Assembly: GCF_012932565.1 (NCBI RefSeq)
Contig: NZ_JABBYJ010000001.1
Location: 806,001-870,000 of the forward strand
Length of the DNA: 64,000 bases
Direction of reading: 5' to 3'
Origin: Sneathiella limimaris
GTDB lineage: Bacteria; Pseudomonadota; Alphaproteobacteria; Sneathiellales; Sneathiellaceae
The translations under genes were made by a program, and so were the position numbers. Below, piece after piece: positions 47,475 through 63,657 of the stretch. The notes beneath the pieces are model-generated. The model saw only the letters and a program-made list of their open reading frames with translations. It was not told where the DNA came from and ran no database searches. The first letter of the stretch is position 1, and the number at the start of each line of letters is the position of its first letter.

Positions 47475-47942
47475 TTACTGACCAGTTTCTTTCCGAAGCG
47501 TTTCTTTTGCTTTTTGCAGTTCTTCAGTCGTTTTGACCAAACGCTCAGCCAACACACGCATCATCTCGATAGACATCTCTGGAAACTCCGTGATGGTTCT
47601 GAGAAAAAGATCCTTTGTGATGCGCAGTGTTGTCAATTCAGAAGCGGCTTTGATCGTTGCGGTTCTAGGGATATTAATCAAAATAGCAATTTCACCCACA
47701 ACATCATTTTTTTTCATGGTTGCCACGGTAATAGGTCCAGATGGAGTGTCTATAACGACATCCGCTTGGCCATTGATAATGACGTAGGCAGCATCTCCCA
47801 TCTCTCCTTGCTTGCAGAGAAGGTCACCGGGCTGAAAGGTTAGTCTCTCAGCGGTAAAGGCAAGCAACTTGATTTTCGATGGGTCAACCTTAGCAAACAG
47901 GGGAATTTGCCTAAGTGTCTCGACCTCTTCTCTTAAAGTCAC
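47475..47942 (-). CDS. Cyclic nucleotide-binding domain protein without DNA-binding domain
   Basis: A 155-residue protein that is almost only a Crp-type cyclic nucleotide-binding domain (about 12-128), followed by a C-terminal helix (LAERLVKTTEELQKAKETL, probably coiled coil). The phosphate-binding cassette VVGEIAILINIPRTAT keeps G83, E84, R93 and T94, the residues that hold cAMP or cGMP in this fold. There is no helix-turn-helix, so it cannot be a direct transcription factor and probably regulates a protein partner. GTG 47942 follows AAGGAG. It lies 26 bases after the degenerate ABC protein and 36 bases before the AmpG-like gene. Confidence 0.85.
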   Translation of the reverse strand: MTLREEVETLRQIPLFAKVDPSKIKLLAFTAERLTFQPGDLLCKQGEMGDAAYVIINGQADVVIDTPSGPITVATMKKNDVVGEIAILINIPRTATIKAASELTTLRITKDLFLRTITEFPEMSIEMMRVLAERLVKTTEELQKAKETLRKETGQ

Positions 47943-47968: not shown

Positions 47969-50620
47969 CTAGCTGATTAGCATCCGGAATTGTTCATTTC
48001 GAGATTTTAAGTCCTCAAAAGAACCTGTATCCATAATTAGGCCGCCAGCAATAAATTGAACCTGATCGAATAGATAGGCCATTTCAGGCTTATCAAGTGA
48101 CCAGATTACACCTCGATCTTCAAATTCGGACAAAATGTTTTCAATAATTCGGTGTTGGGATCTGGAATCCAGAGATGCCGTTGCCTGGTTTAAAACTAGA
48201 AGATCTGGTTTCTTGATAATCGCCCTGGCAATACAGAGTTTTTGCCGTTGGTTTTCACTCAAGCGGGCTCCACCAGAGCCCGTATTGAAATTCAGACCAA
48301 CTTTTATAATCGAGCGTTTTAGATCCATTTCGGCGACGACTTCAGCCAAAAGGGCGCCAATTTTCTCGTTCGCCTGCGCGTACCCGTATGCGATTTTACC
48401 GAACAGGATGTTATCTTGGATGTTTGCTGCAGTGTTGTATGCGTCTGAGTTGAAGAATTCGATCTTACCATGCAGGTGTTCTGGTAAGTGATCGATGAAT
48501 TGCTTCCGGGCGAGGACAATTTTTTCCTGAATATCGTCGGTGATTACACCTAGGCGATGTCGTGAAGGAATGACCTTGAAGGGTAGAGACATGAAGCGAA
48601 GGCGATCTTCTTCGCGCAACTGTTCCAGGTTGTCTGGGTTCACTCTAGAGAGGATTGCCTGATAGTCTGGAAGTTCGTCTGAGGAAATAAATCCGTATTG
48701 TTGGAAGAACTCATGATCTGGTGGCAGATCAGCAAAGAGCTCAATCATTAATGAGGCGACTTGGTAGCCCATTTTGAGGAACGCTGTTGTCAGATTAGCT
48801 TCTTCAATAACTTTCTGCACGTATGAGTTTTCTGCAAGGCGCTCCATGTCGAAGCTGTCACCGACTGGAGTTCCGAACAGTAGGTTTTCACCTAAGGTCG
48901 CGTTCGTATTGTATTTATCTTCTTCAAAGGCTTCGACAAGGTTCTTAAGCGCAGGATCAGCGTCCAGTTTCTCGAAGAAACGCCTGCGGGCGGACAGGAT
49001 CAGAGAGGCAACTTCACTATCCTCTTTTGGATCAAGTGTACTTCTTAGACCAAATTGATATACGTCGTCTCCAAGCTCAACCATTTGCAGAACATCAATA
49101 GCGCGAACGTCCAATTCATGGTGATTTGAAACGCCAGCACTTTCATAATCGATCCAGTCAGCCCGGATTGAGAAAGAACTGTTTCCAGTTATACCGATTT
49201 CCTCTTTATCTCTATTGAGAAAATCAATCTCGTCTTCATCCTCAAGCTGTACTTCGCGAAGAGGTCGGTGCTTCAGGCCAAAAAACAGATTATCTCCAAT
49301 TGAGCTGTTAAACACATATCCGCTTTGCCCGAGATAAGAAATACGCCTTCCTGTCAGAGATTGGGGGGCTGCCAGCAAATCTATTGATCCAAGGCTTAAC
49401 GTCCCGCGGTCTGGGTCGATAAGGCGGGCAATTATTTTTGTGAGTGCATCACGGCCCGAGCCCGCAGCGCCAACGATAGCCGTTTTTTGTTTCAGGTTGC
49501 CACGGATGTTGAGGCCTTCCAATTGGGCTGAGCCGGTATCATCCGCCAATATGAGGTTTGCGCCGACCAATTCGCCCGCTAGATGCGGCATAGGATCTGG
49601 CTCATCCATTTGGTAGGCATCGTCTCGAATGCCTGCAGGTTCAAATTGTTCGACGACCTGTTCATATTTGATCCGGGCATCCTCGCGCCTTTGGTAATAG
49701 GCGAGGAGCTCCTTCCAAGGGGCAGCCATTTCCTTATGGGCTGTAATAGCTGCGACTAGGGTCCCGATTTCAAGGTTCCCAGCAATCACCATTGTTCCAC
49801 CAATGGCATAGAAAAAGAACGGACCGAGCTGTTGAATGAAATTGTTTAGAAATTTGATGACGAATTTTAGGAGATATATGCGGTAGCGCACATAATAAAT
49901 CCGGCCCAGTTGATTGGTGAAATCGGCTCTGAGCAGGTTTGAAGTATCGTGAACGTGGATTTCCTGAATACCGGCAACAGTCTCACCAATCTTGTCTGAA
50001 AGGACGCGAACTCTTTTAACCCGTTCTTTGCCAAGCTGGTTCACCACCCGTTGCATTTTCGGAATGAAATAGGCTTGCAGTGGGTAAAGAGCGATAGCTG
50101 CCAAGGCCATGTGAACATTTTGGATAAGCAAAAAGCTCATGATCACAATTAGATAACCGCCCTGAAAAGCTGGCAGCACGAAAGCTTCGCCAATGAACCC
50201 GCCGAGGGGTTCTACTTCCGAAGTGATCATTGGGATGATCTCACCTGAGCTTTTCTTGCGGAAAGTCGGCAACGGAAACCGCAAAATCCGACTGTAAAGC
50301 TCATACCGCAAGCGGCGCAGCATGCGCTCTCCCGTAATCCCCTGGTATACATTGATCACATACTTAAAGCTCTGATTTATGATAACCAGCAATAAGAATG
50401 CGCCGACCGTTACATATAGAAATTCCTGCTGATCGATAGCGATGCCCATAAATTCAACAGGAAAGATAATGTCTTTCGCCTGAATGGCCTGATCGATGAT
50501 AATTTTTGGGAGTTCAAGATAATAGTAGAGGAACGGAAAAGATCCGACGGATAAAAGTAAGAGGATGATCTGCTGCTTTTTGCTATGGCGCAGAATGTAT
50601 TTGTAAATACTATGTTCCAT
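47969..50620 (-). CDS. Exporter-type ABC protein with degenerate, internally repeated nucleotide-binding domain
   Basis: The 883-residue protein begins like a lipid or drug exporter: six membrane helices within residues 15-300, with the family's GERMLRRLRYELYSRILRFP coupling segment (97-116). From about 350 it resembles a nucleotide-binding domain, but the working residues are gone: Walker A is GAAGSGRDA (384-392, Lys and Ser/Thr lost), the signature is LSENQ (787-791), Walker B is LLVLNQAT (807-814, Asp-Glu replaced by Asn-Gln) and the H-loop is SLDKPE (841-846). Between the Q-loop (Q432) and the signature there are about 350 residues instead of the usual 50 or so, with three copies of the N-x-x-F-G segment (DNLFFG 443, ENLLFG 578, DNILFG 736) and paired helices SARRRFFEKL (543) and LARKQFIDHL (703). 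It may be a non-hydrolysing scaffold, or a channel or exporter driven otherwise. Confidence 0.8.
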   Translation of the reverse strand: MEHSIYKYILRHSKKQQIILLLLSVGSFPFLYYYLELPKIIIDQAIQAKDIIFPVEFMGIAIDQQEFLYVTVGAFLLLVIINQSFKYVINVYQGITGERMLRRLRYELYSRILRFPLPTFRKKSSGEIIPMITSEVEPLGGFIGEAFVLPAFQGGYLIVIMSFLLIQNVHMALAAIALYPLQAYFIPKMQRVVNQLGKERVKRVRVLSDKIGETVAGIQEIHVHDTSNLLRADFTNQLGRIYYVRYRIYLLKFVIKFLNNFIQQLGPFFFYAIGGTMVIAGNLEIGTLVAAITAHKEMAAPWKELLAYYQRREDARIKYEQVVEQFEPAGIRDDAYQMDEPDPMPHLAGELVGANLILADDTGSAQLEGLNIRGNLKQKTAIVGAAGSGRDALTKIIARLIDPDRGTLSLGSIDLLAAPQSLTGRRISYLGQSGYVFNSSIGDNLFFGLKHRPLREVQLEDEDEIDFLNRDKEEIGITGNSSFSIRADWIDYESAGVSNHHELDVRAIDVLQMVELGDDVYQFGLRSTLDPKEDSEVASLILSARRRFFEKLDADPALKNLVEAFEEDKYNTNATLGENLLFGTPVGDSFDMERLAENSYVQKVIEEANLTTAFLKMGYQVASLMIELFADLPPDHEFFQQYGFISSDELPDYQAILSRVNPDNLEQLREEDRLRFMSLPFKVIPSRHRLGVITDDIQEKIVLARKQFIDHLPEHLHGKIEFFNSDAYNTAANIQDNILFGKIAYGYAQANEKIGALLAEVVAEMDLKRSIIKVGLNFNTGSGGARLSENQRQKLCIARAIIKKPDLLVLNQATASLDSRSQHRIIENILSEFEDRGVIWSLDKPEMAYLFDQVQFIAGGLIMDTGSFEDLKSRNEQFRMLIS

Positions 50621-50835
50621 GCAGCGAGACCTGCCTAACCACCCTTGTATATTTTATCATTGCCCCTTGCCACTTTTTCACATTTCTCATCACTCAAGCA
50701 AGGCCCAAATTTGTTTAGAAAAACCTTTTCCAATGATTTGGTGAAAGATGTCACGGACTGAATTTTAAGTGTAAGGTTGAAATTCAGGTGCACACCCCCT
50801 ACTAAAAGTTTTTACTTTATTGGAACGCAAATTTG

Positions 50836-52086
50836 ATGCAGCAGATAGAGAATACGGCTCCGGTTATCACAGTTGTTTTGAAGGGATATCCGCGTCTTTC
50901 GGAAACTTTTATCGCGCAGGAACTCCGTGCATTGGAGAAGCTGGGTCATAAGCTGCATTTGATTTCCCTAAGGTTTCCAACTGACAAGAAAACGCATCCT
51001 GTTCATGAGGAAATGGAAGCGCTGGTTACTTATCTTCCGGAATATTTGCATCAAGAACCTGTCCGGGTTTTGAAAAGCTGGTGGAGCGCAAGGAAGCTGC
51101 CCGGTTATAAGAAAGCGTTCAGAACGTGGATTAGGGATCTCTTTCGAGATTTTAGTCGAAACAGGGTTCGCCGTTTTGGTCAGGCGATGGTTCTGGCGGC
51201 GGAATTTCCAGAAAATAGCCCGATGATTTATGCGCATTTTTTGCACACCCCGGCATCAGTTGCCAGGTACGCGGCGTTTTGCCTGGATCTCCCCTGGAGT
51301 TGTTCTGCTCATGCCAAAGATATTTACACATCCCCAAATTGGGAGATTTCAGAGAAATTAGCCGATGTCAGTTGGCTTGTAACCTGCACAGCTTTCAACG
51401 TGGATCATTTGAGGCAGTTGGCGGCAGATCCTGCCAAGATCGAATTACTTTATCATGGTCTTGATTTTGATCGGTTCGAAGTGGCTGCTCCTGAAGAGCA
51501 TGAACGTTCTGGCGAGAGTACCGAAAATCCAGTGCGAATTCTCTCTGTTGGGCGTGCTGTTGAGAAAAAAGGGTATGACGATGTTTTGGCGGCTTTATCG
51601 AGATTACCAAAAGACTTAAATTGGGAGTTCTCCCATATCGGTGGCGGGCCGCTGCTGGAAGGCCTCAAAGGACAGGCGGCGATTTCTGATTATGCGGATC
51701 GTTGCCATTGGTTGGGGCCGCAATCGCAGGCAGAGGTTAAGGAGGCCATGAGATCTGCTGATATCTTCGTTTTGGCTAGCCGTATTGCCGGTGATGGTGA
51801 TCGGGATGGACTTCCGAATGTTTTGATGGAGGCCCAAAGCCAGAAAGCAGCGATTGTGGCAACGTCTGTTTCGGCAATTCCAGAACTCATTGTTGATAAT
51901 CATACTGGGTTACTTGTATCTCAGAATTCACCCGAGGAACTGGCGCTGGCCTTAGAGAGTTTGATCCGGAACCCGGCCCTTAGAACGCGGCTGAGTGACA
52001 AAGGTTATGAGAAGCTGCTATCGGAGTTTGATGCAAGTAATTGGATAACTCAGCTTTCTGCTAAACTCCCGAAAGGGCCTGTTTAA
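50836..52086 (+). CDS. Glycosyltransferase family 4 (GT-B fold)
   Basis: The product of 416 residues is a GT-B glycosyltransferase. The N-terminal half has VLKGYPRLSETFIAQELRAL (the SETFI loop of family 4 enzymes) and the C-terminal half has ILSVGRAVEKKGYDDVLAAL (about 235-254) and DRDGLPNVLMEAQ with the E-x7-E-like nucleotide-sugar site. Donor and acceptor are unknown. The start is ATG 50836, just after an in-frame TTG. It is the first gene of a plus-strand operon divergent from the degenerate ABC gene and its TAA overlaps the next ATG by one base. Confidence 0.88.
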   Translation: MQQIENTAPVITVVLKGYPRLSETFIAQELRALEKLGHKLHLISLRFPTDKKTHPVHEEMEALVTYLPEYLHQEPVRVLKSWWSARKLPGYKKAFRTWIRDLFRDFSRNRVRRFGQAMVLAAEFPENSPMIYAHFLHTPASVARYAAFCLDLPWSCSAHAKDIYTSPNWEISEKLADVSWLVTCTAFNVDHLRQLAADPAKIELLYHGLDFDRFEVAAPEEHERSGESTENPVRILSVGRAVEKKGYDDVLAALSRLPKDLNWEFSHIGGGPLLEGLKGQAAISDYADRCHWLGPQSQAEVKEAMRSADIFVLASRIAGDGDRDGLPNVLMEAQSQKAAIVATSVSAIPELIVDNHTGLLVSQNSPEELALALESLIRNPALRTRLSDKGYEKLLSEFDASNWITQLSAKLPKGPV

Positions 52087-53222
52087 TGAGGATTGCATTT
52101 TATGCACCTATGAAGGCGCCCACACATGAAATCCCCTCGGGGGATCGAAGGGTAGCCCGGCTTTTTATGGAAGCGCTAACTCTCGCTGGGCATGAAGTTT
52201 ATTTGGCTTCGGATCTGAGATGTTATGACAAGACCGGGACTTCAACAATTCAAGAGCAGCAACGGGACCAAGCTGCTGGTGAAGTGGTTCGGATTTTAAA
52301 TGAGATCAACGCTGATCCAAGCTCTCCTAAACCCGATTTATGGTTCACTTATCATGTCTATCACAAGGCACCTGATTGGATTGGTCCTTTGATTTCGAAA
52401 GCGCTTCATATTCCTTATGCGGTCGCTGAGGCTAGTCATGCTCCAAAGCAAGCGGGCGGGCCTTGGGCTTTAGGTTATGAGGCAGCTGCTCAGGCGATCC
52501 GGAGCGCTGCCAAGGTATTTTATATGACTGATTTGGATGGAAATTGCTTGCGAGATCTTGTTTCGGATGACGGGAAACTTGTGAAACTTCCGCCTTTCAT
52601 GAAACCAATCGAGAGCTCAAAATCTGAAATTTCTCCGGATGTTCAAGCCTTGATTAGAGACAGAGAACTGTCGAATTCTAAAGATATTAGGCTTCTGACT
52701 GTGGCGATGATGCGCCCTGGAGATAAAATGAATTCTTACACTCAACTCGCAGAAATGCTGTCATATCTTCCACCGGATGGTTGGACATTGATGGTCGTAG
52801 GAGACGGGGAGTGCGAAGCGGAGGTGAAAGCTCTTTTTGAGCCTTTTGCAGGGCGAGTATCTTATTTCGGACAGCGAGGCGGTGCAGATTTAGAAGCGCT
52901 ATATGCTGAGGCGGATCTTTATGTCTGGCCTGCGTGCGGAGAAGCTTATGGGATGGCCTTACTCGAAGCTGAATGGTTCGGTACTCCAGTGATCGCTGGT
53001 GATGTGAGGGGCGTACCTGATGTGGTTCAGCATGGGCACACAGGATATTTGATCCCTGAAGGTGATATGAAAGCCATGGCTGGACAGATCATTACTCTTC
53101 AAAAAGATCCAGCAAGACTCCAGCAACTATCAGAGCAAGCTGCCCTTTTTGTGCGGCGTGAAAGAAGTCTTGAGGCTACTTCAGATCTTTTGAATACCCA
53201 CTTAGAGGAATTATTCAAATGA
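52086..53222 (+). CDS. Glycosyltransferase (GT-B, family 4-like)
   Basis: A 378-residue GT-B enzyme. The N-terminal part opens with the acceptor-side loop MKAPTHEIPSGDRRVARLF, and the C-terminal part has LTVAMMRPGDKMNSYTQLAE (about 198-217), LMVVGDGECEAEV, and WPACGEAYGMALLEAEWFGTPVIAG (from about 280), the donor-sugar site with E-x7-E. Specificity is unknown. It starts within the TAATG overlap with the previous gene and ends in an ATGA overlap with the next, so translation is coupled. Confidence 0.85.
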   Translation: MRIAFYAPMKAPTHEIPSGDRRVARLFMEALTLAGHEVYLASDLRCYDKTGTSTIQEQQRDQAAGEVVRILNEINADPSSPKPDLWFTYHVYHKAPDWIGPLISKALHIPYAVAEASHAPKQAGGPWALGYEAAAQAIRSAAKVFYMTDLDGNCLRDLVSDDGKLVKLPPFMKPIESSKSEISPDVQALIRDRELSNSKDIRLLTVAMMRPGDKMNSYTQLAEMLSYLPPDGWTLMVVGDGECEAEVKALFEPFAGRVSYFGQRGGADLEALYAEADLYVWPACGEAYGMALLEAEWFGTPVIAGDVRGVPDVVQHGHTGYLIPEGDMKAMAGQIITLQKDPARLQQLSEQAALFVRRERSLEATSDLLNTHLEELFK

Positions 53223-53800
53223 TTCCTCTTTTGGTAATTCGCCATGGAAAAACAGAGTGGAACTTGCAAAAAAAATTGCAGGGCCGACGGGATATTCCTC
53301 TCTGCGAGGAGGGTATTGAAGAGCTCAAAACAGCCATTATTCCTGCAGAGTTTCAAATGTTTGAATGGGTGTCCAGCCCTCTTCAGCGTGCAATCCAAAC
53401 AGCTCAAATTTTAGGTGCAACTGATCTCAGTATCGAAAATCGTTTGATAGAAATGGATTTTGGTGCCTGGGAAGGGCACACAATTAAGGAGCTACGAAAT
53501 TGTTTCGGTGAGGAAATGATTGAAAATGAGCGCCAAGGTCTGGATATGACGCCACCGGAAGGGGAGTCACCTCGTCTGGTGAGAGAGCGCTTGGCCTCTT
53601 TTCTTAGAGAATTAAGCTCCCCGACTATTGCCGTTACCCATAAAGGTGTTATTAGGGCATTGCAGTCTTTGGCATATGATTGGGATATGAAACAGGTTTT
53701 GCCGATTGAGTATCACTGGAATAAGGCTCATCTGTTTCTGATTACCGAAGAAGGTCATGTCATTCCAGAGCGCCCAAATGTAAGATTGGAAAAGCCATAA
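53219..53800 (+). CDS. Histidine phosphatase (phosphoglycerate mutase-like)
   Basis: A 193-residue protein with the full histidine-phosphatase set: VIRHGKTEWN (H9 nucleophile and its Arg), SSPLQRAIQTAQ (second Arg), EMDFGAWEG (proton-donor Glu) and VTHKGVIRAL (second His). Members hydrolyse phosphoesters of sugars, nucleotides or cofactors. Set between two glycosyltransferase genes, with an ATGA overlap before and a TAATG overlap after, it probably acts on a phosphorylated sugar or sugar-lipid intermediate (inference). Confidence 0.85.
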   Translation: MIPLLVIRHGKTEWNLQKKLQGRRDIPLCEEGIEELKTAIIPAEFQMFEWVSSPLQRAIQTAQILGATDLSIENRLIEMDFGAWEGHTIKELRNCFGEEMIENERQGLDMTPPEGESPRLVRERLASFLRELSSPTIAVTHKGVIRALQSLAYDWDMKQVLPIEYHWNKAHLFLITEEGHVIPERPNVRLEKP

Positions 53801-54957
53801 TGGAAACAAGCATACCGCCGAAAATCCTTTTTTATGTCCAGCATTTGCTGGGCATCGGGCATCTGCGGCGAACCGCTACACTAGCAAGAAATCTGGTCCG
53901 GGCTGGGTTTGATGTCACAGTGGTTTCTGGTGGTCATCCTATCAATATCGATCTTGAGGGAGCTGAAATTGTCCAGCTGCCAGCAACCCGAGCGACAGAC
54001 TTGTTTTTTAAGCAACTTGTTGATGAAGACGGAAATGCGATTGATGATAGCTGGCGTGAAATGCGGGCAGCCAAGCTTCTGGGCATCTATCACCGGGTTA
54101 CACCTGATATTCTGATTACTGAACTTTTCCCGTTCGGGCGCCGGCAAATGCGGTTTGAGATTTTGCCATTGTTGGAAGCGGCTAAATCTGAAATGAAGCC
54201 ACCGTTAATCCTGTCTTCCGTTCGTGATATCCTCGTGGCCCAGACGAAACCCGGGCGGAATGACGAGATGTTGGATCTTGTTCGCCGTTATTTTGATAAG
54301 GTGTTGGTTCATGGGGATCCAAACTTGATTTCTCTGGATCGAACTTTCCCTCATACAGAGGCAATCAAGGATCGGATTTTCTACACAGGATATGTAGTAG
54401 ACCGTACGGGTGTAAAAGGTGGACCGGAAGCTCCTGGGTATGATGAGGTTATTGTTTCCAGTGGCGGTGGGGCTGTGGGTCACAACCTTTTAAAAGCTGC
54501 TATTTTGGCTAAACCCAAGACTTTGCTTTCGAATAAAACATGGCGCTGTATGGTTGGGGTTACCGTTGAAGAGGAGCTGTTTCAAGAGTTGAAAGAAATG
54601 GCAGGCCCGGGGGTAATTATTGAGCGTGCTCGAAAAGACTTCACCACCCTACTGATGAATTGCGCACTTTCGATCTCCCAAGGGGGTTACAATACAGTTA
54701 TGGAAGTTCTGCATGCAAAGTGCCGTGCGGTGATCGTACCTTATGCCGGTGGGTTAGAGACTGAACAGACGTTGCGCGCTGAGCTTTTAGCCGCCAAAGG
54801 TGTTTTGCAAATCGCCGAAGAAGACGGCTTAACGCCTGAGAAACTGGCCGAGAAAGTTGATCTTGCTTACGATGGACCTCCGGCCTCAGCCGAAATTGAT
54901 GTTTCTGGAACAGATACAACTGTTGCCTTGTTAAGGGGATGGTTGGCCGAACGCTGA
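53800..54957 (+). CDS. MurG-like predicted glycosyltransferase (COG4671 type)
   Basis: The 385-residue protein opens with ILFYVQHLLGIGHLRRTATLA, the G-x-GH loop of GT28-like enzymes, and in the C-terminal half has VIVSSGGGAVGHNLLKAA (about 206-223), LSISQGGYNTVMEVL (about 288-302) and VPYAGGLETEQTLRAELL, the nucleotide-sugar-binding part of the MurG-type fold. It fits the predicted glycosyltransferase group COG4671. The sugar is unknown. Both ends overlap neighbours (TAATG before; TGATG after). Confidence 0.82.
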   Translation: METSIPPKILFYVQHLLGIGHLRRTATLARNLVRAGFDVTVVSGGHPINIDLEGAEIVQLPATRATDLFFKQLVDEDGNAIDDSWREMRAAKLLGIYHRVTPDILITELFPFGRRQMRFEILPLLEAAKSEMKPPLILSSVRDILVAQTKPGRNDEMLDLVRRYFDKVLVHGDPNLISLDRTFPHTEAIKDRIFYTGYVVDRTGVKGGPEAPGYDEVIVSSGGGAVGHNLLKAAILAKPKTLLSNKTWRCMVGVTVEEELFQELKEMAGPGVIIERARKDFTTLLMNCALSISQGGYNTVMEVLHAKCRAVIVPYAGGLETEQTLRAELLAAKGVLQIAEEDGLTPEKLAEKVDLAYDGPPASAEIDVSGTDTTVALLRGWLAER

Positions 54958-55742
54958 TGAATTACTGGGATCAACTGGATACTGAACTGAACTGTTGGGC
55001 TGAGAGTGGAAAAATTGCCACTTTCTGGTGGCGAGATGATGATCTCAATGAACCGACCCCAGCATTGGACAGATTACTCCACCTTCGTGACCAATTTGAT
55101 ATTCCGCTTACGCTGGCAACCATTCCCGATAAGGTTGACCCTTTGATCGCTTCCGATCTGGAAGGATGTGAGCTTATCCAGCACGGTGTTACTCATCAGT
55201 CTTTTTCTGCAAAAGGCATGAAGAAATCTGAATTTCCAGCCGAAAGGGATCTGAAAGAGGTCGAGGATCAGCTGCGCGTTGGCAAATATCGGATGGAAGA
55301 TCTGTTTTCTGATAATTTTTTTGCTTTTTTTGTGCCTCCATGGAATCGCATTTCGGATATCCATATTCCGACCCTACAGAAGTTGGGATTTGCAGGATTA
55401 TCAAGGTTCAAGGCAAGAAATTCAGCTTGTCCGCTGCCGGGTTTTGCTGAAATAAACACCCATATTGATCCAGTTTTTTGGAGAGGTGGTCGTAGTGCCA
55501 GATCTGAAACTGAGATTCTCAAAGATATTCTTGATCACCTGAAGGCAAGACGGTCAGGAAGTGTTGACGCAAGTGAACCAACGGGTTTGTTGACCCATCA
55601 TCTGATGTTTGATCAAGATTTATGGGCGATTACGTTTAAGCTTTTGTCTTATCTACAAGAAAAAAATACCGTAAGGTTTCTGACCTTGAGAGGGGCCATG
55701 GCCCTGATTGATGAACTCTCAACTCTGGACGATTATCTTTAA
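54957..55742 (+). CDS. NodB-type polysaccharide deacetylase-like protein
   Basis: The 261-residue protein has the NodB-like features FWWRDDDLNEPTPALDRLL (Asp cluster near residues 23-25), the metal His in LIQHGVTHQSF (about 74-84), and FFVPPWNR (about 125-132), typical of a distinct deacetylase branch. It has no signal peptide, so it is cytosolic, unlike the secreted deacetylase at 26940. A cytosolic deacetylase in a glycosyltransferase operon may deacetylate a lipid-linked or nucleotide-linked amino sugar. ATG 54957 overlaps the previous stop (TGATG); an upstream ATG at 54939 would give more overlap and no reason. Confidence 0.8.
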   Translation: MNYWDQLDTELNCWAESGKIATFWWRDDDLNEPTPALDRLLHLRDQFDIPLTLATIPDKVDPLIASDLEGCELIQHGVTHQSFSAKGMKKSEFPAERDLKEVEDQLRVGKYRMEDLFSDNFFAFFVPPWNRISDIHIPTLQKLGFAGLSRFKARNSACPLPGFAEINTHIDPVFWRGGRSARSETEILKDILDHLKARRSGSVDASEPTGLLTHHLMFDQDLWAITFKLLSYLQEKNTVRFLTLRGAMALIDELSTLDDYL

Positions 55743-56284: not shown

Positions 56285-58177
56285 ATGTCCAACGTGTTGC
56301 TGGTACGAGATCTCAAAATCGAATTTCGTGTGTCTGAAGGTACTGTAAAAGCCGTCGACGGTGTTAGTTTTCGTGTTCCGATGGGCAAGACAGTTGCTCT
56401 GGTTGGGGAAAGCGGATCTGGGAAATCCGTGATTAGTCAGGCGATCATGTCTATTCTTCCAAAATCCGCACATATCACGGATGGGGAGATTCTATTTTTT
56501 GACCCGGATAAGCCTGGAAACTTCTATGACATCGCTAAGTTGAAACCAGACAGCAAGGAAATGCGTCAGATCCGCGGTGGTAGAATAACCATTATCTTTC
56601 AAGAACCGATGACTTCACTTTCCCCTTTGCACACTATTGGGGACCAGATTTCTGAAGCGCTGCATCTTCATCAAAAAAAATCAAAAGCAGAAGGTCTAGA
56701 ACTGACTATTGATATGTTGCGATTAGTTGGCTTTCCAGATCCAGAAGCTGCGGTTAATACCTACCCTTTTGAACTTTCTGGTGGTTTGCGTCAGCGGGCC
56801 ATGATTGCAATGGCAATGATCTGTAATCCAGCATTGCTGATTGCGGATGAACCAACAACTGCGCTGGATGTGACCATTCAGGCCCAGATCTTGGATTTGA
56901 TGCAAAAATTGCAGGAAAAACTGGAAATGGCGATCCTGCTCATCACCCATGATCTTGGTGTCGTTGCCAGCATGGCTGACGAAGTCGTGGTTATGTATCA
57001 CGGCAAGATCATGGAGCAAGGAAGCCTTGAGGATATCTTCCGAGATCCAAGTCACCCCTATTTGAAAGCATTGCTTAAGGCGGTGCCCCGTTTTGATATG
57101 AAAGAAGGGGAGCGGCTAACCCCAATTCGGGAGATTACCCGTAATGCTGACAGTAAGTTTCTGGCTCAGGCAAATCCGCGGGACATGTCTGAAACAGACA
57201 GCAAACCAATTTTGGAGGTTTCGAACCTTTCCAAAGTTTTCAACACCCGAAAAACAACTATTATTGGAAACAAGCCAGGCGGTTCGATCCGGGCCGTTGA
57301 TCACGTCAGTTTCTTTGTCAATCCGGGAGAATGTCTCGGGCTGGTTGGGGAGTCCGGGTGTGGTAAAACAACCCTTTCCAAAATGATCCTACGGGCAGTC
57401 AGTGCAACCTCCGGATCCGTTATCTATAACGATAGAGGTCAGGATTTAGATGTTCTTAGCCTCAATAAGTCCCAGCTTTTTGACTATCGCAGTAAGGTTC
57501 AATTTATATTCCAGGATCCTTTTTCCTCATTGAATCCGCGGATGACTGTTTTTGATATTATTTCTGAACCGCTGGTTATTCATAATATCGGGACACAGAA
57601 AGAACGAGAAGAAACTGTCAAAGAGCTGATGGAGCTGGTCGGTTTGGATGTGAGGTTCCTAAGGCGCTATCCGCATTCTTTCTCAGGCGGGCAACGTCAA
57701 CGGATTGGTATTGCTCGTGCGCTTGCCTTGAAGCCGGATTTGCTAATATGTGATGAGCCTGTTTCTGCTCTGGATGTATCCATCCAAGCGCAGATTCTAA
57801 ATCTACTCAAAGATCTGCAAAAGGAATTGGGTCTGACTTATTTGTTCATTTCCCATAACTTGGCGGTCGTTGATTATATCGCAGATCGGATTGCCGTTAT
57901 GTGTCGGGGCAGACTAGTTGAAACGGCACCAAAGGATGTTCTTTTTAAAAATCCGATCCATCCTTATACGAAGCGGTTGCTTGCCGCGGTCCCTGAACCC
58001 AATCCGGAGCATCGACTGGACTTCGACCATTTGGTGTCCGAAAAAGCTTCAGATCCTGCTGCTTGGCAAGCACCGTTTACAATCAGCGAAGATGCGACAC
58101 CGCTTATGCTGGATATGGGGAATGGACATTTTGTTCGAGTTCACGAAGGGACGACAGTTGAGGAATTGAGAGCATGA
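56285..58177 (+). CDS. Oligopeptide-type ABC transporter ATPase (two fused NBDs)
   Basis: The 630-residue protein fuses two nucleotide-binding domains, like YejF or GsiA. The first (about 1-270) has GESGSGKSVISQAIM, LSGGLRQRAMIAMAM and LLIADEPTTALD; the second (about 310-600) has GESGCGKTTLSKMIL, FSGGQRQRIGIARAL and LLICDEPVSALD, both with the oligopeptide C-terminal motif HPYLKALLKAVP and HPYTKRLLAAVP. All active-site residues are intact. It energises import with the permeases at 60089 and 61114 and binds upstream of the solute-binding gene with an ATGA overlap. Confidence 0.93.
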   Translation: MSNVLLVRDLKIEFRVSEGTVKAVDGVSFRVPMGKTVALVGESGSGKSVISQAIMSILPKSAHITDGEILFFDPDKPGNFYDIAKLKPDSKEMRQIRGGRITIIFQEPMTSLSPLHTIGDQISEALHLHQKKSKAEGLELTIDMLRLVGFPDPEAAVNTYPFELSGGLRQRAMIAMAMICNPALLIADEPTTALDVTIQAQILDLMQKLQEKLEMAILLITHDLGVVASMADEVVVMYHGKIMEQGSLEDIFRDPSHPYLKALLKAVPRFDMKEGERLTPIREITRNADSKFLAQANPRDMSETDSKPILEVSNLSKVFNTRKTTIIGNKPGGSIRAVDHVSFFVNPGECLGLVGESGCGKTTLSKMILRAVSATSGSVIYNDRGQDLDVLSLNKSQLFDYRSKVQFIFQDPFSSLNPRMTVFDIISEPLVIHNIGTQKEREETVKELMELVGLDVRFLRRYPHSFSGGQRQRIGIARALALKPDLLICDEPVSALDVSIQAQILNLLKDLQKELGLTYLFISHNLAVVDYIADRIAVMCRGRLVETAPKDVLFKNPIHPYTKRLLAAVPEPNPEHRLDFDHLVSEKASDPAAWQAPFTISEDATPLMLDMGNGHFVRVHEGTTVEELRA

Positions 58178-60072
58178 AGAAACTGCTTTATCTTCTCTTT
58201 TTAATTTCGTTTGCTGGGGTCAGTCAGAGCGCTTATGCGGCTGACACTCCTGAAGTCCCTTATTTTGCTGAAGCGGTGCAATCAGGTGACCTTCCGCCAG
58301 TGTCTAAGCGGCTTCCTGCGACGCCTCGTGTGGTTTCCTTATATGAAGACCAGGTCCTTGGAGAATATGGGGGAACTCTAAACAGCCTTATTGGCAATGC
58401 ATCTGATGTGAAGCTGATGTTTGTCTACGGTTACGCACGTCTTGTGTCTTATACCCCGGATCTTCGAATTGTCCCTGATATTGCAGAAAGTTTTCAGGTT
58501 GAGGATAATCGGATCTTCACGTTCAAATTACGAGAAAACCATCGCTGGTCTGACGGGGCACCTTTTACATCGGAAGATTTTCGGTATTGGTGGGAAGATG
58601 TTGCGAATAATGCGAAACTCTCGCCAACAGGTCCGCCAGCCTCCTTACTGGTCAATGGGGAGCCGCCAAAAGTTTCTTTTCCAGATGCGCTGACTGTTCG
58701 TTATGAATGGTCAAGTCCCAACCCAGACTTCTTGAGCCTTCTTGCAAGTGCGGCGCCGCTGTTGATTTATCGCCCTGCCCATTATCTAAAGCCGTATCAT
58801 GATCGGTATGTCGATAAGTCCAAGATGAACAAAATCCAGAAGATTAAGTTCAAGGCCTGGGCATCCCAGCACAATAGACTGGATAACCTCTATAAATTCG
58901 ACAACCCGGATTTGCCAACGTTGCAGCCATGGCGAAATACAACCGCGTCTCCTGCAAACCGCTTCGTTGGAGAGCGAAACCCATATTTTCACCGAGTAGA
59001 TGAGTTGGGTCGCCAGCTTCCCTATATTGATCGGGTCATTCTTTCTGTATCGGAGCCGAAACTGATTTCTGCAAAGGCGGCTTCCGGGGATGTCGATCTT
59101 CAGGTTCGAGCTCTAAAATTGCAGGATGCAACTTTCCTCAAAGCCAACGAAAAACGATCAAAATACAGGACACTTCTGTGGCCGACGGTTCGGGGATCGC
59201 ATTTTGTGTTGTTTCCAAATTTAAATGTGGTTGATCCAAAATGGAGGAAATTGATCCGTGATGTCCGTTTCCGCAGGGCGTTATCACTGGGTATCGACCG
59301 GGCCGAGATAAATGACGTCCTGTTTTTTGGTTTGGCAAAAGAGGGTAACAATACAGTTCAGGAGCAAAGTGAACTTTACGAAGAGAGATTTCAGAAAGAT
59401 TGGGCCTATTTGGATTTCGACAAAGCAAATGCGCTTTTGGATGAAATGGGTCTGACGGAGCGTGATGAAAACGGTATCCGGTTAATGGAGGATGGATCAC
59501 CTCTTACCATCATCGTCGAGACGGCTGGTGAAAGTACAGAACAAACTGATGTATTGGAGCTCATCCGTGACAGCTGGAAAGAGATTGGAATTGCCCTCTT
59601 TACCAAACCATCGCAGCGCGCAGTATTCCGAAATCGGATTTTCGCAGGAGAGACGGTCATATCCGTATGGTCAGGTTTTGAAAATGGTGTTGCAAATCCG
59701 AGTGCCAGCCCTGCTCTCTTGGCTCCAACAACGCAGGTTGGTTATCAATGGCCTAAATGGGGTCAATATTATGAAACCAAAGGTAAGTCCGGTGAGCCAG
59801 TTGACATGCCGGAAGTTGAACGTCTCTATGACCTTTACAGAGAGTGGCGGGTCTCCAGCACAGATGCGGAACGAACTCGGATTTGGAAGGAAATGCTCGC
59901 AATTCATGCAGAACAACAGTTCACTATAGGGGTTGTGAGCGGTATTTTGCAGCCAATTGTTGTTAAAAACAGCCTTCAGAATGTGCCTAAGACTGCAATA
60001 TTCAACTGGGATCCAGGGGCACATTTTGGCATGTATCATCCAGATTTGTTCTGGTTTAAAGCGGACGGCTAG
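58174..60072 (+). CDS. Family 5 extracellular solute-binding protein
   Basis: The 632-residue protein has a signal peptide of about 22 residues (cleavage after AYA) and the SBP_bac_5 fold: YARLVSYTPDLRIVPDIAESF, FTFKLRENHRWSDGAPFTSEDFRYWWEDV in pieces (about 108-140), and FRRALSLGIDRAEINDVLFFG (about 366-386). It is longer than the OppA average and lies in the YejA/large-substrate group. Substrates are peptides, opines or sugar-peptides; not determined by sequence. Starts in an ATGA overlap with the ATPase gene. Confidence 0.92.
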   Translation: MKKLLYLLFLISFAGVSQSAYAADTPEVPYFAEAVQSGDLPPVSKRLPATPRVVSLYEDQVLGEYGGTLNSLIGNASDVKLMFVYGYARLVSYTPDLRIVPDIAESFQVEDNRIFTFKLRENHRWSDGAPFTSEDFRYWWEDVANNAKLSPTGPPASLLVNGEPPKVSFPDALTVRYEWSSPNPDFLSLLASAAPLLIYRPAHYLKPYHDRYVDKSKMNKIQKIKFKAWASQHNRLDNLYKFDNPDLPTLQPWRNTTASPANRFVGERNPYFHRVDELGRQLPYIDRVILSVSEPKLISAKAASGDVDLQVRALKLQDATFLKANEKRSKYRTLLWPTVRGSHFVLFPNLNVVDPKWRKLIRDVRFRRALSLGIDRAEINDVLFFGLAKEGNNTVQEQSELYEERFQKDWAYLDFDKANALLDEMGLTERDENGIRLMEDGSPLTIIVETAGESTEQTDVLELIRDSWKEIGIALFTKPSQRAVFRNRIFAGETVISVWSGFENGVANPSASPALLAPTTQVGYQWPKWGQYYETKGKSGEPVDMPEVERLYDLYREWRVSSTDAERTRIWKEMLAIHAEQQFTIGVVSGILQPIVVKNSLQNVPKTAIFNWDPGAHFGMYHPDLFWFKADG

Positions 60073-60088
60073 GGGGGAACTAACAGGC

Positions 60089-61117
60089 ATGTTCAGCTAT
60101 TTTATCCAGAGACTGCTGGTCATGATACCCACCTTGTTGGTGGTGAGTATTCTGACATTTATCATTATTCAGCTTCCGCCAGGTGACTACCTTTCCAATC
60201 AGCTGCAGGAATTGAAAGCTCAAGGGGAGAGCGCGACAGCCGCTGCAAAAATTACATTCCTTCGGGAACAGTATTCCTTGGATAAACCCTTGATAGAGCA
60301 ATACGCAATCTGGATGGGATTCTGGCCTGGACCTAATGGTTTTTCAGGTCTTTTGCAGGGAGACTGGGGGCATAGTTTTGCCTATGACCTACCCGTGACT
60401 GAGGTCCTGGGCGATCGAATGTTGCTTACCTTTGTCGTGAACTTCTCGACTATCTTGTTTATTTACATCGTAGCTTTTCCGATCGGGGTCTACTCTGCGA
60501 CTAGGCAATATTCGATTGGGGATTATGGATTTACCCTCATTGGCTACTTAGGACTTGCGACACCTAACTTCCTGCTCGCCATGGTCTTGCTGTACTACGC
60601 AAACTATTATTTTGGCCTTTCCATCGGTGGTTTGATGGATGAACAATATCTCGACCAACCCTGGAGCGTAGATAAGGTTCTCTCAATTCTCGATCATATG
60701 ATCATCCCCGTGATCGTGATTGGAACCAGTGGAACGGCTGCAATGATCCGGCGCTTGCGAGCGAATTTGCTGGATGAGTTGCAAAAGCAATATGTCACGA
60801 CCGCAAAGGCCAAAGGTGTGCCGAAATTGCGGGCATTGATTAAATATCCGATCCGGATGTCCCTAAATCCATTCATTGCTGACATTGGGAATTTGTTACC
60901 TGATGTGATTTCTGGCTCTGTCATTGTGAGTGCTGTTCTGAGTTTGCCAACCGCAGGACCGATGCTGCTCGAGGCACTTCGCAGTCAGGATCAGTATCTA
61001 GCGGGCTCCTTCCTGATGTTTCTGGCCCTGCTTACAGTGATTGGTGTGTTTATTTCTGACCTGTTACTTGCAGCCCTTGATCCTAGAATCAGGCTTAGTG
61101 GGGGGGCGACAAAATGA
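60089..61117 (+). CDS. Oligopeptide-type ABC transporter permease (first)
   Basis: A 342-residue permease with six hydrophobic helices and the DppB/YejB-type opening MFSYFIQRLLVMIPTLLVVSILTFIIIQLPPGD (in pieces), plus the EAA-like loop RANLLDELQKQYVTTAKAKGVPKL (about 230-253) that docks to the ATPase. I chose ATG 60089 after a GGGGGAAC site, because an upstream frame reaching 59957 would overlap the binding-protein gene by over 100 bases. It overlaps the next gene by ATGA. Confidence 0.92.
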   Translation: MFSYFIQRLLVMIPTLLVVSILTFIIIQLPPGDYLSNQLQELKAQGESATAAAKITFLREQYSLDKPLIEQYAIWMGFWPGPNGFSGLLQGDWGHSFAYDLPVTEVLGDRMLLTFVVNFSTILFIYIVAFPIGVYSATRQYSIGDYGFTLIGYLGLATPNFLLAMVLLYYANYYFGLSIGGLMDEQYLDQPWSVDKVLSILDHMIIPVIVIGTSGTAAMIRRLRANLLDELQKQYVTTAKAKGVPKLRALIKYPIRMSLNPFIADIGNLLPDVISGSVIVSAVLSLPTAGPMLLEALRSQDQYLAGSFLMFLALLTVIGVFISDLLLAALDPRIRLSGGATK

Positions 61118-62298
61118 GTGATTCAATTAATAGCGGCAGGGATGGTCAGCTAGAGCATTGGTACTCTAAGGAGCCGTTTGATCCGCTATCAGTCGAGAAG
61201 CTCTCTCCTGAGCAGGAAAAATATTATATGGCCTCTCAGTGGAAGATGATGTGGTGGAAGTTCTGCCGGCATCGTCTTGCGGTGATCAGTGGTATCATCC
61301 TTCTGCTTTTTTATCTCTCGACAATCTTTGCAGAATTCCTGGCTCCTTATGAACTTCATAGTCGGAACACACGCAATATTTTTGCGCCGCCCCAGTCAGT
61401 TCATATTTTTCATGAAGGGGAACTGAGAGCACCATTTGTGTATGGATATCGTCAGAAGCTCAATCTGGATACCCTGCAGCGGGAATACCGAGTGGATAAA
61501 ACCCGCATTTATCCGCTGCGTTTTTTCTGTAGTGGCGATGAATATAAAATGTGGGGAATGTTTGATGCGGATCTGCATCTGGTTTGCGCCGACGATCAGC
61601 GCCGGGCCACCTTCTTCTGGTTGGGAACGGATCGATTGGGACGGGATATTTTCTCTCGGATCATTTATGGAACCCGGATTTCCCTGACCATTGGGCTAAT
61701 CGGGATTATCATCAGCTTCACCCTTGGTATCGTTCTTGGCGGGATCTCGGGATATTACGGTGGCTGGGTTGATAACATAATTCAGCGAACGATTGAGTTG
61801 TTGAAGTCTCTCCCGCAATTACCTTTGTGGCTTGCTTTGTCGGCGGCACTACCTGTGACTTGGTCGCCTATCTGGGTATTTTTCGGATTGTCGATTATCC
61901 TTGGCCTTCTTGATTGGCCGGGGCTCGCGAGGGCGGTGCGATCGAAATTCCTCTCGTTGAGAGAGGAGGATTTTACCACTGCAGCTCAATTAATGGGAGC
62001 AAGTCCAAGCCGAATTATCGGGCGTCATCTATTGCCGTCTTTTGCTTCCCATTTGATTGCGAGTGCAAGTCTTGCTGTCCCAAGTATGATTTTAGGTGAG
62101 ACTGCCCTATCTTTCCTTGGGCTGGGGTTGAGGCCACCGATTACATCTTGGGGTGTTCTGCTGAATGAGACGACAAATATCAACGCTGTGGCGACAACAC
62201 CCTGGCTGATGTACCCGGTTGTTCCTGTCATCATTGTTGTGTTGGCGTTTAATTTCCTCGGCGACGGACTTCGGGACGCAGCGGATCCTTACAAGTAA
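61114..62298 (+). CDS. Oligopeptide-type ABC transporter permease (second)
   Basis: A 394-residue permease of the DppC/YejE type. An N-terminal cytosolic region (1-45) precedes the first helix (about 57-73); a periplasmic stretch of about 100 residues (80-175) follows, longer than in DppC and typical of YejE. The remaining helices carry LGTDRLGRDIFSRIIYGTRISL (about 171-192) and the EAA loop LREEDFTTAAQLMGASPSRIIGRHLLP (in pieces, about 284-310). It completes the four-protein transporter; it is convergent with the cyclase gene, nine bases apart. Confidence 0.92.
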   Translation: MSDSINSGRDGQLEHWYSKEPFDPLSVEKLSPEQEKYYMASQWKMMWWKFCRHRLAVISGIILLLFYLSTIFAEFLAPYELHSRNTRNIFAPPQSVHIFHEGELRAPFVYGYRQKLNLDTLQREYRVDKTRIYPLRFFCSGDEYKMWGMFDADLHLVCADDQRRATFFWLGTDRLGRDIFSRIIYGTRISLTIGLIGIIISFTLGIVLGGISGYYGGWVDNIIQRTIELLKSLPQLPLWLALSAALPVTWSPIWVFFGLSIILGLLDWPGLARAVRSKFLSLREEDFTTAAQLMGASPSRIIGRHLLPSFASHLIASASLAVPSMILGETALSFLGLGLRPPITSWGVLLNETTNINAVATTPWLMYPVVPVIIVVLAFNFLGDGLRDAADPYK

Positions 62299-62307
62299 AG
62301 GCGTGAT

Positions 62308-63657
62308 TTATGGCGAGAGTGTCACTAGGTTTACAAGACCAGTGACACCGCCCACATTGCGATTGGGAAGAAAATCAGTTTTAAATTGGGGCAAATAGCC
62401 TTGCTTCTTGGCCACCTCAAAGCAGGCCTCTGTCACGAGGATGGAAGCTGCTTCTTCTTTTGCATGCTTATCCAGCTTGGCAGCAAGGTTTACAGGCTCC
62501 CCAATCACTGTGTATTCGAGGCGGCTTTTGTCTCCAACCGCACCAAAAAGGATAGATCCAGAAGCTGCGGTGAAGCGGATTTTCTGTCTCGGCAAACCCT
62601 TCTGCTCACGTTCGGTACGCCATAGTTCTGCCTCTCGTTTCAGCTCCTCCATGGCTTCCAGGCAATTTTTTGCATAATTTTCACTGTCCAAAACAGCTCC
62701 AAAGCTAGCGAGGATCCCATCGCCGAGAAATTTGTCAATTGTCCCGCCATGCTTTTGGATAATCGGTACCATTCGGGATTGATATTCTGCCAACAGGCTA
62801 ATGACTTCATTGGCGGGCTTTTCCATAGAAAGGCGCGTAAAGCCCTCCATATCACAATGAAGAATGGCCGCTTCCCTATTTTGACCGGTTCCCGGCTCAA
62901 TCCAGTTTTCAGCATGGGTGATTTTTGCTGCAACTTCTGGGCTGAAAAAGCGAGAGAGATCAGCAGCCGCAGTGCTTTGGCTTACTGAATTAATCAAAAG
63001 CCGGCGTGCCCGCACAATGACGAGAGCGAGTATCAGGGTAACGATGATAATGCTAATGATCTTGTCAAATTCCGCCCCTAGTAGGATTTTGTGAGACATT
63101 GTGTAGAGCACATAATCCCGGGTAATCGTATCCATGCCCTCCCCATGATAGACAGCATACGCAACCAGAGAAAACCAGCCGATTGCAGCAGTCAAGCCAG
63201 CGAGCAGCACGTATCGCATATCAAAGCGAAGAGCCCGAAGGGTTATAAAGATAAAGGCATATAAAAGCGTTGGCGCCTTCAGATAGAAGGCCGGTGGCTG
63301 GACATACTGAATATGAAAGCTCCAGATCAGGAACATGAGCAAGGTCATGTCTGCAACAACTGAAAAAGCTAAGAACCATCCCGGTAATCGCCAATAAATC
63401 GCCCAGATGAGACGCATCAGAGAGAAAACAAAATAACCCATCAGCGCGAAGGGAACCGGTGCAAACATCACATCTTGCGAGAAGGTTTTGGGGCTAAAGA
63501 TGTATAAAGAGCCAAAAATAAGGACAAGAAGTAACTGAACGACAGCGATCAGAATTTCCGAATTATCCTGTTGTTGTTGAATGGCGCTCAGGACCCGCGA
63601 TGGCATTTGGCCCGCAGTCTTGTCTCCCAGTAACTTGAACGTCTTCAGCTTGTTCAT
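62308..63657 (-). CDS. Membrane class III adenylate cyclase
   Basis: The 449-residue protein has about six N-terminal membrane helices (residues 34-218), a short linker helix and a class III cyclase domain (about 255-449). Metal ligands D269 (HCDMEGFT) and D313 (LGDGILASFG) are present; K309 and T383 (EYTVIGEP) are the usual adenine-selecting pair, favouring ATP over GTP. The N-x3-R transition-state motif reads N390-L-A-A-K394, so the Arg is Lys, which may lower activity. It would make cAMP, a possible signal for the binding-domain protein at 47475. Confidence 0.85.
   Translation of the reverse strand: MNKLKTFKLLGDKTAGQMPSRVLSAIQQQQDNSEILIAVVQLLLVLIFGSLYIFSPKTFSQDVMFAPVPFALMGYFVFSLMRLIWAIYWRLPGWFLAFSVVADMTLLMFLIWSFHIQYVQPPAFYLKAPTLLYAFIFITLRALRFDMRYVLLAGLTAAIGWFSLVAYAVYHGEGMDTITRDYVLYTMSHKILLGAEFDKIISIIIVTLILALVIVRARRLLINSVSQSTAAADLSRFFSPEVAAKITHAENWIEPGTGQNREAAILHCDMEGFTRLSMEKPANEVISLLAEYQSRMVPIIQKHGGTIDKFLGDGILASFGAVLDSENYAKNCLEAMEELKREAELWRTEREQKGLPRQKIRFTAASGSILFGAVGDKSRLEYTVIGEPVNLAAKLDKHAKEEAASILVTEACFEVAKKQGYLPQFKTDFLPNRNVGGVTGLVNLVTLSP

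Follow-up and report, generated by a model that had tools for sequence, protein, structure and literature searches.

An alphaproteobacterial family of ABC half-exporter-like proteins with degenerate ATPase motifs, paired with a cyclic-nucleotide-binding protein and tentatively linked to a surface polysaccharide

ABC exporters are regarded as ATP-driven by definition, and their architecture is also used for gating and regulation in CFTR and SUR, which are eukaryotic and both still bind ATP. The SbmA/BacA (SLiPT) proteins are proton-driven and operate free of ATP with a membrane domain derived from ABC exporters; a YddA-like TMD that shed its NBD is reported as their ancestor (PMC13316013). HetC of Nostoc is an ABC exporter with a domain of the cyclic-nucleotide-binding (CNB) type that is required in vivo and binds ppGpp (PMC10986499). 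In Sinorhizobium meliloti, nine genes within smb21252-smb21271 are needed for the PPP polysaccharide, which protects against phazolicin, and insertions in them sensitise the cells to this compound (PMC10128002). We analyzed a stretch of 64,000 nucleotides from Sneathiella limimaris (the window), in which one gene (47969-50620, minus strand) encodes an exporter-like protein of 883 amino acids, referred to here as pseudo-ABC. The frame is open for all 883 codons, as read in a first-pass annotation. Database records label the members of its family "ABC transporter ATP-binding protein", and our search of open-licence papers found no described pseudo-ATPase ABC family in Alphaproteobacteria.

The membrane domain of pseudo-ABC (residues 1-330; 49631-50620, minus strand) is of the type IV ABC exporter fold. 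Pfam ABC_membrane (PF00664) matched residues 64-293 at 1.5e-22, which met our criterion for a six-helix exporter membrane domain, and ABC_tran matched the protein at 4.9e-14. The N-terminal half of the NBD extends to about residue 450, just past the first N-x-x-F-G motif, and is followed by an insert (about 451-719) and the C-terminal half (720-883). The AlphaFold2 model, based on 20 family sequences, had a mean pLDDT of 80 and a pTM of 0.72, with two weak membrane stretches (159-182 and 294-303). Foldseek matched it to TmrAB, PCAT1, MsbA and P-glycoprotein (E of ~1e-16 to 1e-19); the TM-scores were moderate, ~0.4 of the query for half-transporters, which the insert and differences in conformation would lead one to expect. 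The gene is present in a single copy in its own genome, whose ordinary ABC proteins share 17-39% identity with it, over parts only.

The ATPase motifs, all on the minus strand, are degenerate throughout. In the Walker A sequence GAAGSGRDA (GAAGSGRD, residues 384-391; 49448-49471; family motif G..G.G[KR][DE]) the lysine has become R390 and the serine or threonine D391. The signature reads LSENQRQ (787-793; 48242-48262), Walker B reads LLVLNQAT (807-814; 48179-48202), and the H-loop, WSLDKPE (840-846; 48083-48103), has D843 at the position of the histidine; the A-loop aromatic residue is also absent. Our reading agrees with the earlier one, in which the Walker A lysine and serine/threonine, the Walker B acidic pair, the signature glycines and the H-loop histidine were all found to be gone. 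By a simple pattern scan, the ordinary exporters of the same genome carry intact GPSGAGKT/S, ILLLDEAT and IAHR motifs, and most carry LSGGQ.

Of the 288 sampled alphaproteobacterial genomes, 102 hold full-length members (E<=1e-90); a phylum-wide sample returned matches in Alphaproteobacteria again, plus one membrane-domain-only match in another class. The motif counts given here refer to 86 aligned full-length members. A complete ATPase motif set, our criterion for an ATPase-competent NBD, occurs in none of them (0/86), so that the condition under which the first-pass annotation would have been refuted, intact motifs in most relatives, did not materialize. The SGG of the signature is likewise missing from every member (0/86), and G..G.GK[ST] and the Walker B DE are each found in 3/86. 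The assertion that every motif is lost holds in that no working set remains in the 86 relatives, but single residues survive variably: the Walker A lysine in 39/86, the Walker B glutamate in 38/86, the Q-loop glutamine in 31/86 and the H-loop histidine in 17/86. The NG86 dN/dS of the ten closest pairs was 0-0.14, alike for the membrane domain, the NBD halves and the insert. Ratios of up to 0.34 between the window protein and its relatives L009 and L010 are uninformative because the synonymous sites are near saturation. Purifying selection, together with the family-wide loss, supports the earlier proposal of a selected, non-ATPase function rather than decay. Without a hydrolysis measurement, we are nonetheless confident that pseudo-ABC does not hydrolyse ATP.

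The N-x-x-F-G motifs are much better conserved than the ATPase motifs: the asparagine of every copy is retained in 85-86 of the 86 members and the glycine of copy 3 in all 86. The copies lie at residues 444, 579 and 737, within three repeat units on the minus strand. Unit 1 (residues 427-560; 48941-49342) comprises the Q-loop, NLFFG (444-448) and a first basic helix, unit 2 (561-719; 48464-48940) contains YNTNATLGENLLFG, helices and a second basic helix, and unit 3 (720-782; 48275-48463) contains YNTAANIQDNILFG and is continuous with the C-terminal NBD half. Profile-profile comparison of segments 427-560 (U1), 561-719 (U2) and 720-808 (U3) gave P=8.7e-13 for U2 vs U3, 2.7e-6 for U1 vs U2 and 7.7e-5 for U1 vs U3, against P >= 0.01 for control pairs of unrelated segments. 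Thus the three copies noticed at first pass are confirmed and conserved family-wide, copies 2 and 3 being close and copy 1 more distant. Copy 1 is the usual post-Q-loop element of ABC exporters and runs on from the canonical N-terminal half, copy 3 adjoins the canonical C-terminal half, and the middle copy is the extra one. The two basic helices between the Q-loop and the signature (~535-555 and ~695-712), which precede copies 2 and 3, also resemble each other (P=1.1e-5), in line with the first-pass annotation; that they might be extra signature helices was ruled out (hB vs hC, P=0.13). Tandem segmental duplication within the NBD is the simplest origin that we can infer for the repeats.

The next gene, which begins 26 bp past that of pseudo-ABC, encodes a single-domain CNB protein of 155 amino acids (47475-47942, minus strand). 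Pfam detected only cNMP_binding (residues 35-117, 1.1e-17), with no DNA-binding domain or helix-turn-helix; a Crp/Fnr regulator, which would carry a helix-turn-helix after the CNB domain, was thereby ruled out. The phosphate-binding cassette, GEIAILINIPRTAT (residues 83-96; 47655-47696, minus strand), follows the pattern GE[IL]A[IL]L...PRTAT that is retained across 70 aligned partners with a near-invariant arginine, and meets our criterion of a glutamate plus an arginine. The closest solved domains are those of PKG and PKA-R. In PKA and PKG, R-T-A rather than R-A-A favours cGMP; by this analogy cGMP might be the ligand, which in the absence of binding data is a lead only. The CNB gene lies <= ~90 bp downstream of pseudo-ABC in most members, and in the divergent members L085, L087, L092-L096 and L113 the CNB domain is fused to the C-terminus of pseudo-ABC. 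Adjacency and fusion are strong evidence of cooperation, and we have little doubt that the two proteins work together. The 3.7-Mb genome holds a large cyclic-nucleotide signalling set, with 14 class III nucleotidyl cyclase domains; one class III adenylate/guanylate cyclase (449 amino acids; 62308-63657, minus strand) lies in the window, at a distance of ~12 kb from the pair. The S. meliloti locus has a cyclase too, but across the domain the two are only 26% identical and no more than 4 loci match at E<=1e-10, so that we do not claim a cyclase as a conserved part of the cluster.

Divergent to the pair lies a set of genes on the plus strand: a GT1 glycosyltransferase (50833-52086), a GT2 glycosyltransferase (52086-53222), a histidine phosphatase (53219-53800), a GT28-type glycosyltransferase (53800-54957) and a polysaccharide-deacetylase-like protein (54939-55742; weak match to DUF2334). 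This order recurs across families, with genes for a 173-aa protein and for an ABC importer of the peptide type coming next, and in relatives an extra GT28-like gene (~410 aa) often adjoins pseudo-ABC. The peptide-type importer of the window (56285-62298, plus strand) consists of a double NBD, a binding protein and two permeases; its association with the glycosyltransferase cluster recurs across families, S. meliloti included. Among the 288 genomes, pseudo-ABC and the GT28 occur together in 98, one alone in 4 and 1, and neither in 185 (Fisher p=5e-71, a test that ignores shared ancestry, which inflates the significance). The co-occurrence holds in genomes where the two are on separate contigs or more than 1 megabase apart; that the two became unlinked repeatedly and yet were both kept speaks for functional dependence. 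We consider it likely that pseudo-ABC serves this polysaccharide pathway.

In S. meliloti the pair is represented by HB773_24135, the pseudo-ABC ortholog, which is recorded as an ordinary ATP-binding protein, and by the adjacent CNB gene HB773_24130, which carries a "Crp/Fnr" annotation. The locus was anchored by its sulfotransferase, aminotransferase and deacetylase genes, which match the published descriptions of SMb21249, SMb21248 and SMb21247 (PMC5498481). By gene counting, SMb21252 falls on HB773_24210 and SMb21265 on the GT28; both are glycosyltransferases (PMC10128002). Counting from the same anchors, we infer that the pair is about SMb21267/21268, inside smb21252-smb21271. HB773_24210 matched the window GT2 at 5e-81, HB773_24150 matched GT1 at 1.6e-146 and HB773_24205 matched the deacetylase at 7e-42, and this satisfied our criterion for a PPP cluster, namely that the locus contain related glycosyltransferases. 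The tie of the pseudo-ABC ortholog to PPP is inferred from position; it has not been shown to be among the nine required genes. S. meliloti MsbA2, first suspected to be the ortholog and which we take to be SMb21191 in an operon at ~938 kb of pSymB, was ruled out by position, as the pseudo-ABC ortholog lies at ~842-844 kb. SMb21188 is at 938 kb of pSymB (PMC3687685).

The membrane domain also occurs alone, in paralogs without an NBD that form two groups. Group A (L097:7540-8781, minus; L101:8926-10149, minus; L134:5561-6340, plus; L135:4-1149, plus) comprises proteins of 380-413 amino acids, L134 being cut by a contig end, with an additional N-terminal hydrophobic stretch and an SbmA-like layout. 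It is monophyletic (UFboot 98) and joins the full-length family with a support of 74. Three of its four members are surrounded by genes of copper handling (multicopper oxidase, CopB, PCu(A)C, Cu P-type ATPase); the remaining one, on a short contig, neighbours cytochrome c'. Group B (L099, L100, L128 and L130-L132; ~320-347 aa) branches outside, mostly in housekeeping contexts. The outgroup of the tree was only two exporters, and the order of events is not resolved by it. The predicted model of one NBD-less paralog gave weak, about equal matches to ABC exporters and SbmA. These paralogs show that an NBD is dispensable in this membrane-domain lineage; moreover, the membrane-domain query retrieved no ordinary exporter of 550-750 aa from the 288 genomes at E<=1e-30, and thus no competent ATPase is present in the lineage within this sampling. 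L098, in which a full-length gene is cut off by the end of the contig, was ruled out as a TMD-only member. Two further loci (L136:2473-5025, plus; L138:4453-7296, minus) match the insert and C-terminal half strongly and have a very divergent membrane domain.

The dead ATPase, the CNB pairing and the sugar gene set together suggest that pseudo-ABC probably acts without ATP in moving or controlling a surface polysaccharide. Our tentative proposal, in which we place slightly less than even confidence, is that pseudo-ABC serves a PPP-type surface-polysaccharide pathway as a membrane component that needs no ATP and is controlled by a cyclic nucleotide, its transport, energy source and ligand all being inferred. 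Pseudo-ABC would be an ATPase-dead type IV half-exporter, presumably a homodimer, and the pseudo-NBD, enlarged by copies of the Q-loop/N-x-x-F-G segment, would be the module at which the CNB protein docks and exerts control. Binding of cGMP or cAMP to the partner would alter the membrane domain, which may then either transport a glycan or glycolipid or license its transport, the substrate being a product of the GT1/GT2/HisPhos/GT28/deacetylase set and of the Sinorhizobium PPP type. The energy might come from an ion gradient or from downhill flow, as in SbmA. Lacking transport data, we lean only slightly to transport over sensing. In keeping with the proposal, an insertion in cyaA of S. meliloti mildly sensitises the cells to phazolicin (MIC 0.74 vs 1.47 ug/mL; PMC10128002). 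Against the proposal, the glycan genes of the window are divergent and do not form one operon with the pair, and the cyaA effect could instead act via the transcription factor Clr.

Were pseudo-ABC a sensor or scaffold and not a transporter, its ABC-like body would hold the CNB protein to the membrane and pass the cyclic-nucleotide level on, either to the glycosyltransferases or to export machinery located elsewhere. The family-wide loss of ATPase motifs fits this, as do the CNB fusions, the glycosyltransferases of the cluster, which are soluble-type by Pfam, and the large cytosolic surface with near-invariant motifs that the insert provides. However, the membrane domain is the best-conserved region (mean pairwise identity 54% vs 39-41% elsewhere), beyond what a simple anchor needs, and it is all that the NBD-less paralogs retain; we judge this explanation unlikely, if still to be reckoned with. 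A different account keeps ATP in play by making pseudo-ABC the degenerate half of a heterodimer whose ATPase-competent half-exporter is encoded elsewhere. Exporters with one degenerate nucleotide site are well known (PMC7756269), and unlinked ordinary half-exporters are present in the genome. Yet neither face has kept its motifs, and the signature, which would be needed to complete the site of the partner, is among those lost; the family travels with the CNB gene in a conserved neighbourhood that holds no ordinary half-exporter gene. An unlinked partner is not excluded, and we consider it improbable.

The pseudo-NBD might also bind ATP without hydrolysis and gate the membrane domain, in the manner of CFTR NBD1 or SUR. 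The P-loop glycines are retained in 78/86 members and the lysine position is K or R in 82/86, but an acidic D/E replaces the Mg-ligand S/T of Walker A in 69/86, the A-loop position is aromatic in only 12/86 and, as noted, SGG is nowhere found, so that we give an ATP sensor little credence. A local lesion or a decaying gene would by itself fit the motif loss in the window. Nothing further supports it, and the same state in a third of the sampled alphaproteobacterial genomes, with intact frames and dN/dS well below 1, leaves it virtually no room.

If the cyclic-nucleotide-controlled component that we favour exists as proposed, the family could represent a transporter class descended from ABC exporters in which ATP was exchanged for a cyclic nucleotide and surface-glycan export is gated by a second messenger, an idea that we regard as speculative. 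In such a class, a CNB subunit resembling PKG/PKA would signal through the pseudo-NBD to a membrane domain of the ABC type, and the NBD-less copper-cluster paralogs would give the same lineage another branch that is free of ATP. A family conserved across the class, with a dead ATPase and a cyclic-nucleotide partner, points to another way, next to that of SbmA, of freeing the ABC membrane fold from ATP. To our knowledge, it would be the first case of an NBD retained as a signal-input module. The family also supplies a candidate membrane or signalling component for an uncharacterised polysaccharide that shields rhizobia from an antimicrobial peptide, and would link cyclic nucleotides to it by a non-transcriptional route. 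The CNB partner, the polysaccharide cluster, the GT28 co-occurrence and the NBD-less paralogs are new here.

Compared with known systems, pseudo-ABC has in common with MsbA, PCAT1, TmrAB and TM287/288 the membrane fold, the arrangement of one TMD plus one NBD-like domain, and the N-x-x-F-G after the Q-loop; unlike them, it has no usable Walker A or B, signature or H-loop. Against type IV half-exporters in general, it adds an insert of ~270 residues, extra copies of the Q-loop segment and a constant CNB partner. Pfam gives it only ABC_membrane and ABC_tran, with no match to SbmA_BacA, and in contrast to SbmA/BacA it retains an enlarged, conserved pseudo-NBD; the NBD-less paralogs are closer to the SbmA layout. 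CFTR and SUR have no CNB partner. HetC has an N-terminal CNB domain, a peptidase domain and a needed ATPase residue, whereas in pseudo-ABC the CNB domain is separate or C-terminal, the peptidase domain is absent and the ATPase motifs are lost, so that our criterion for a HetC-type protein failed. The S. meliloti PPP locus smb21252-smb21271, whose polysaccharide is uncharacterised, holds orthologs of the pair together with relatives of GT1, GT2, GT28 and the deacetylase.
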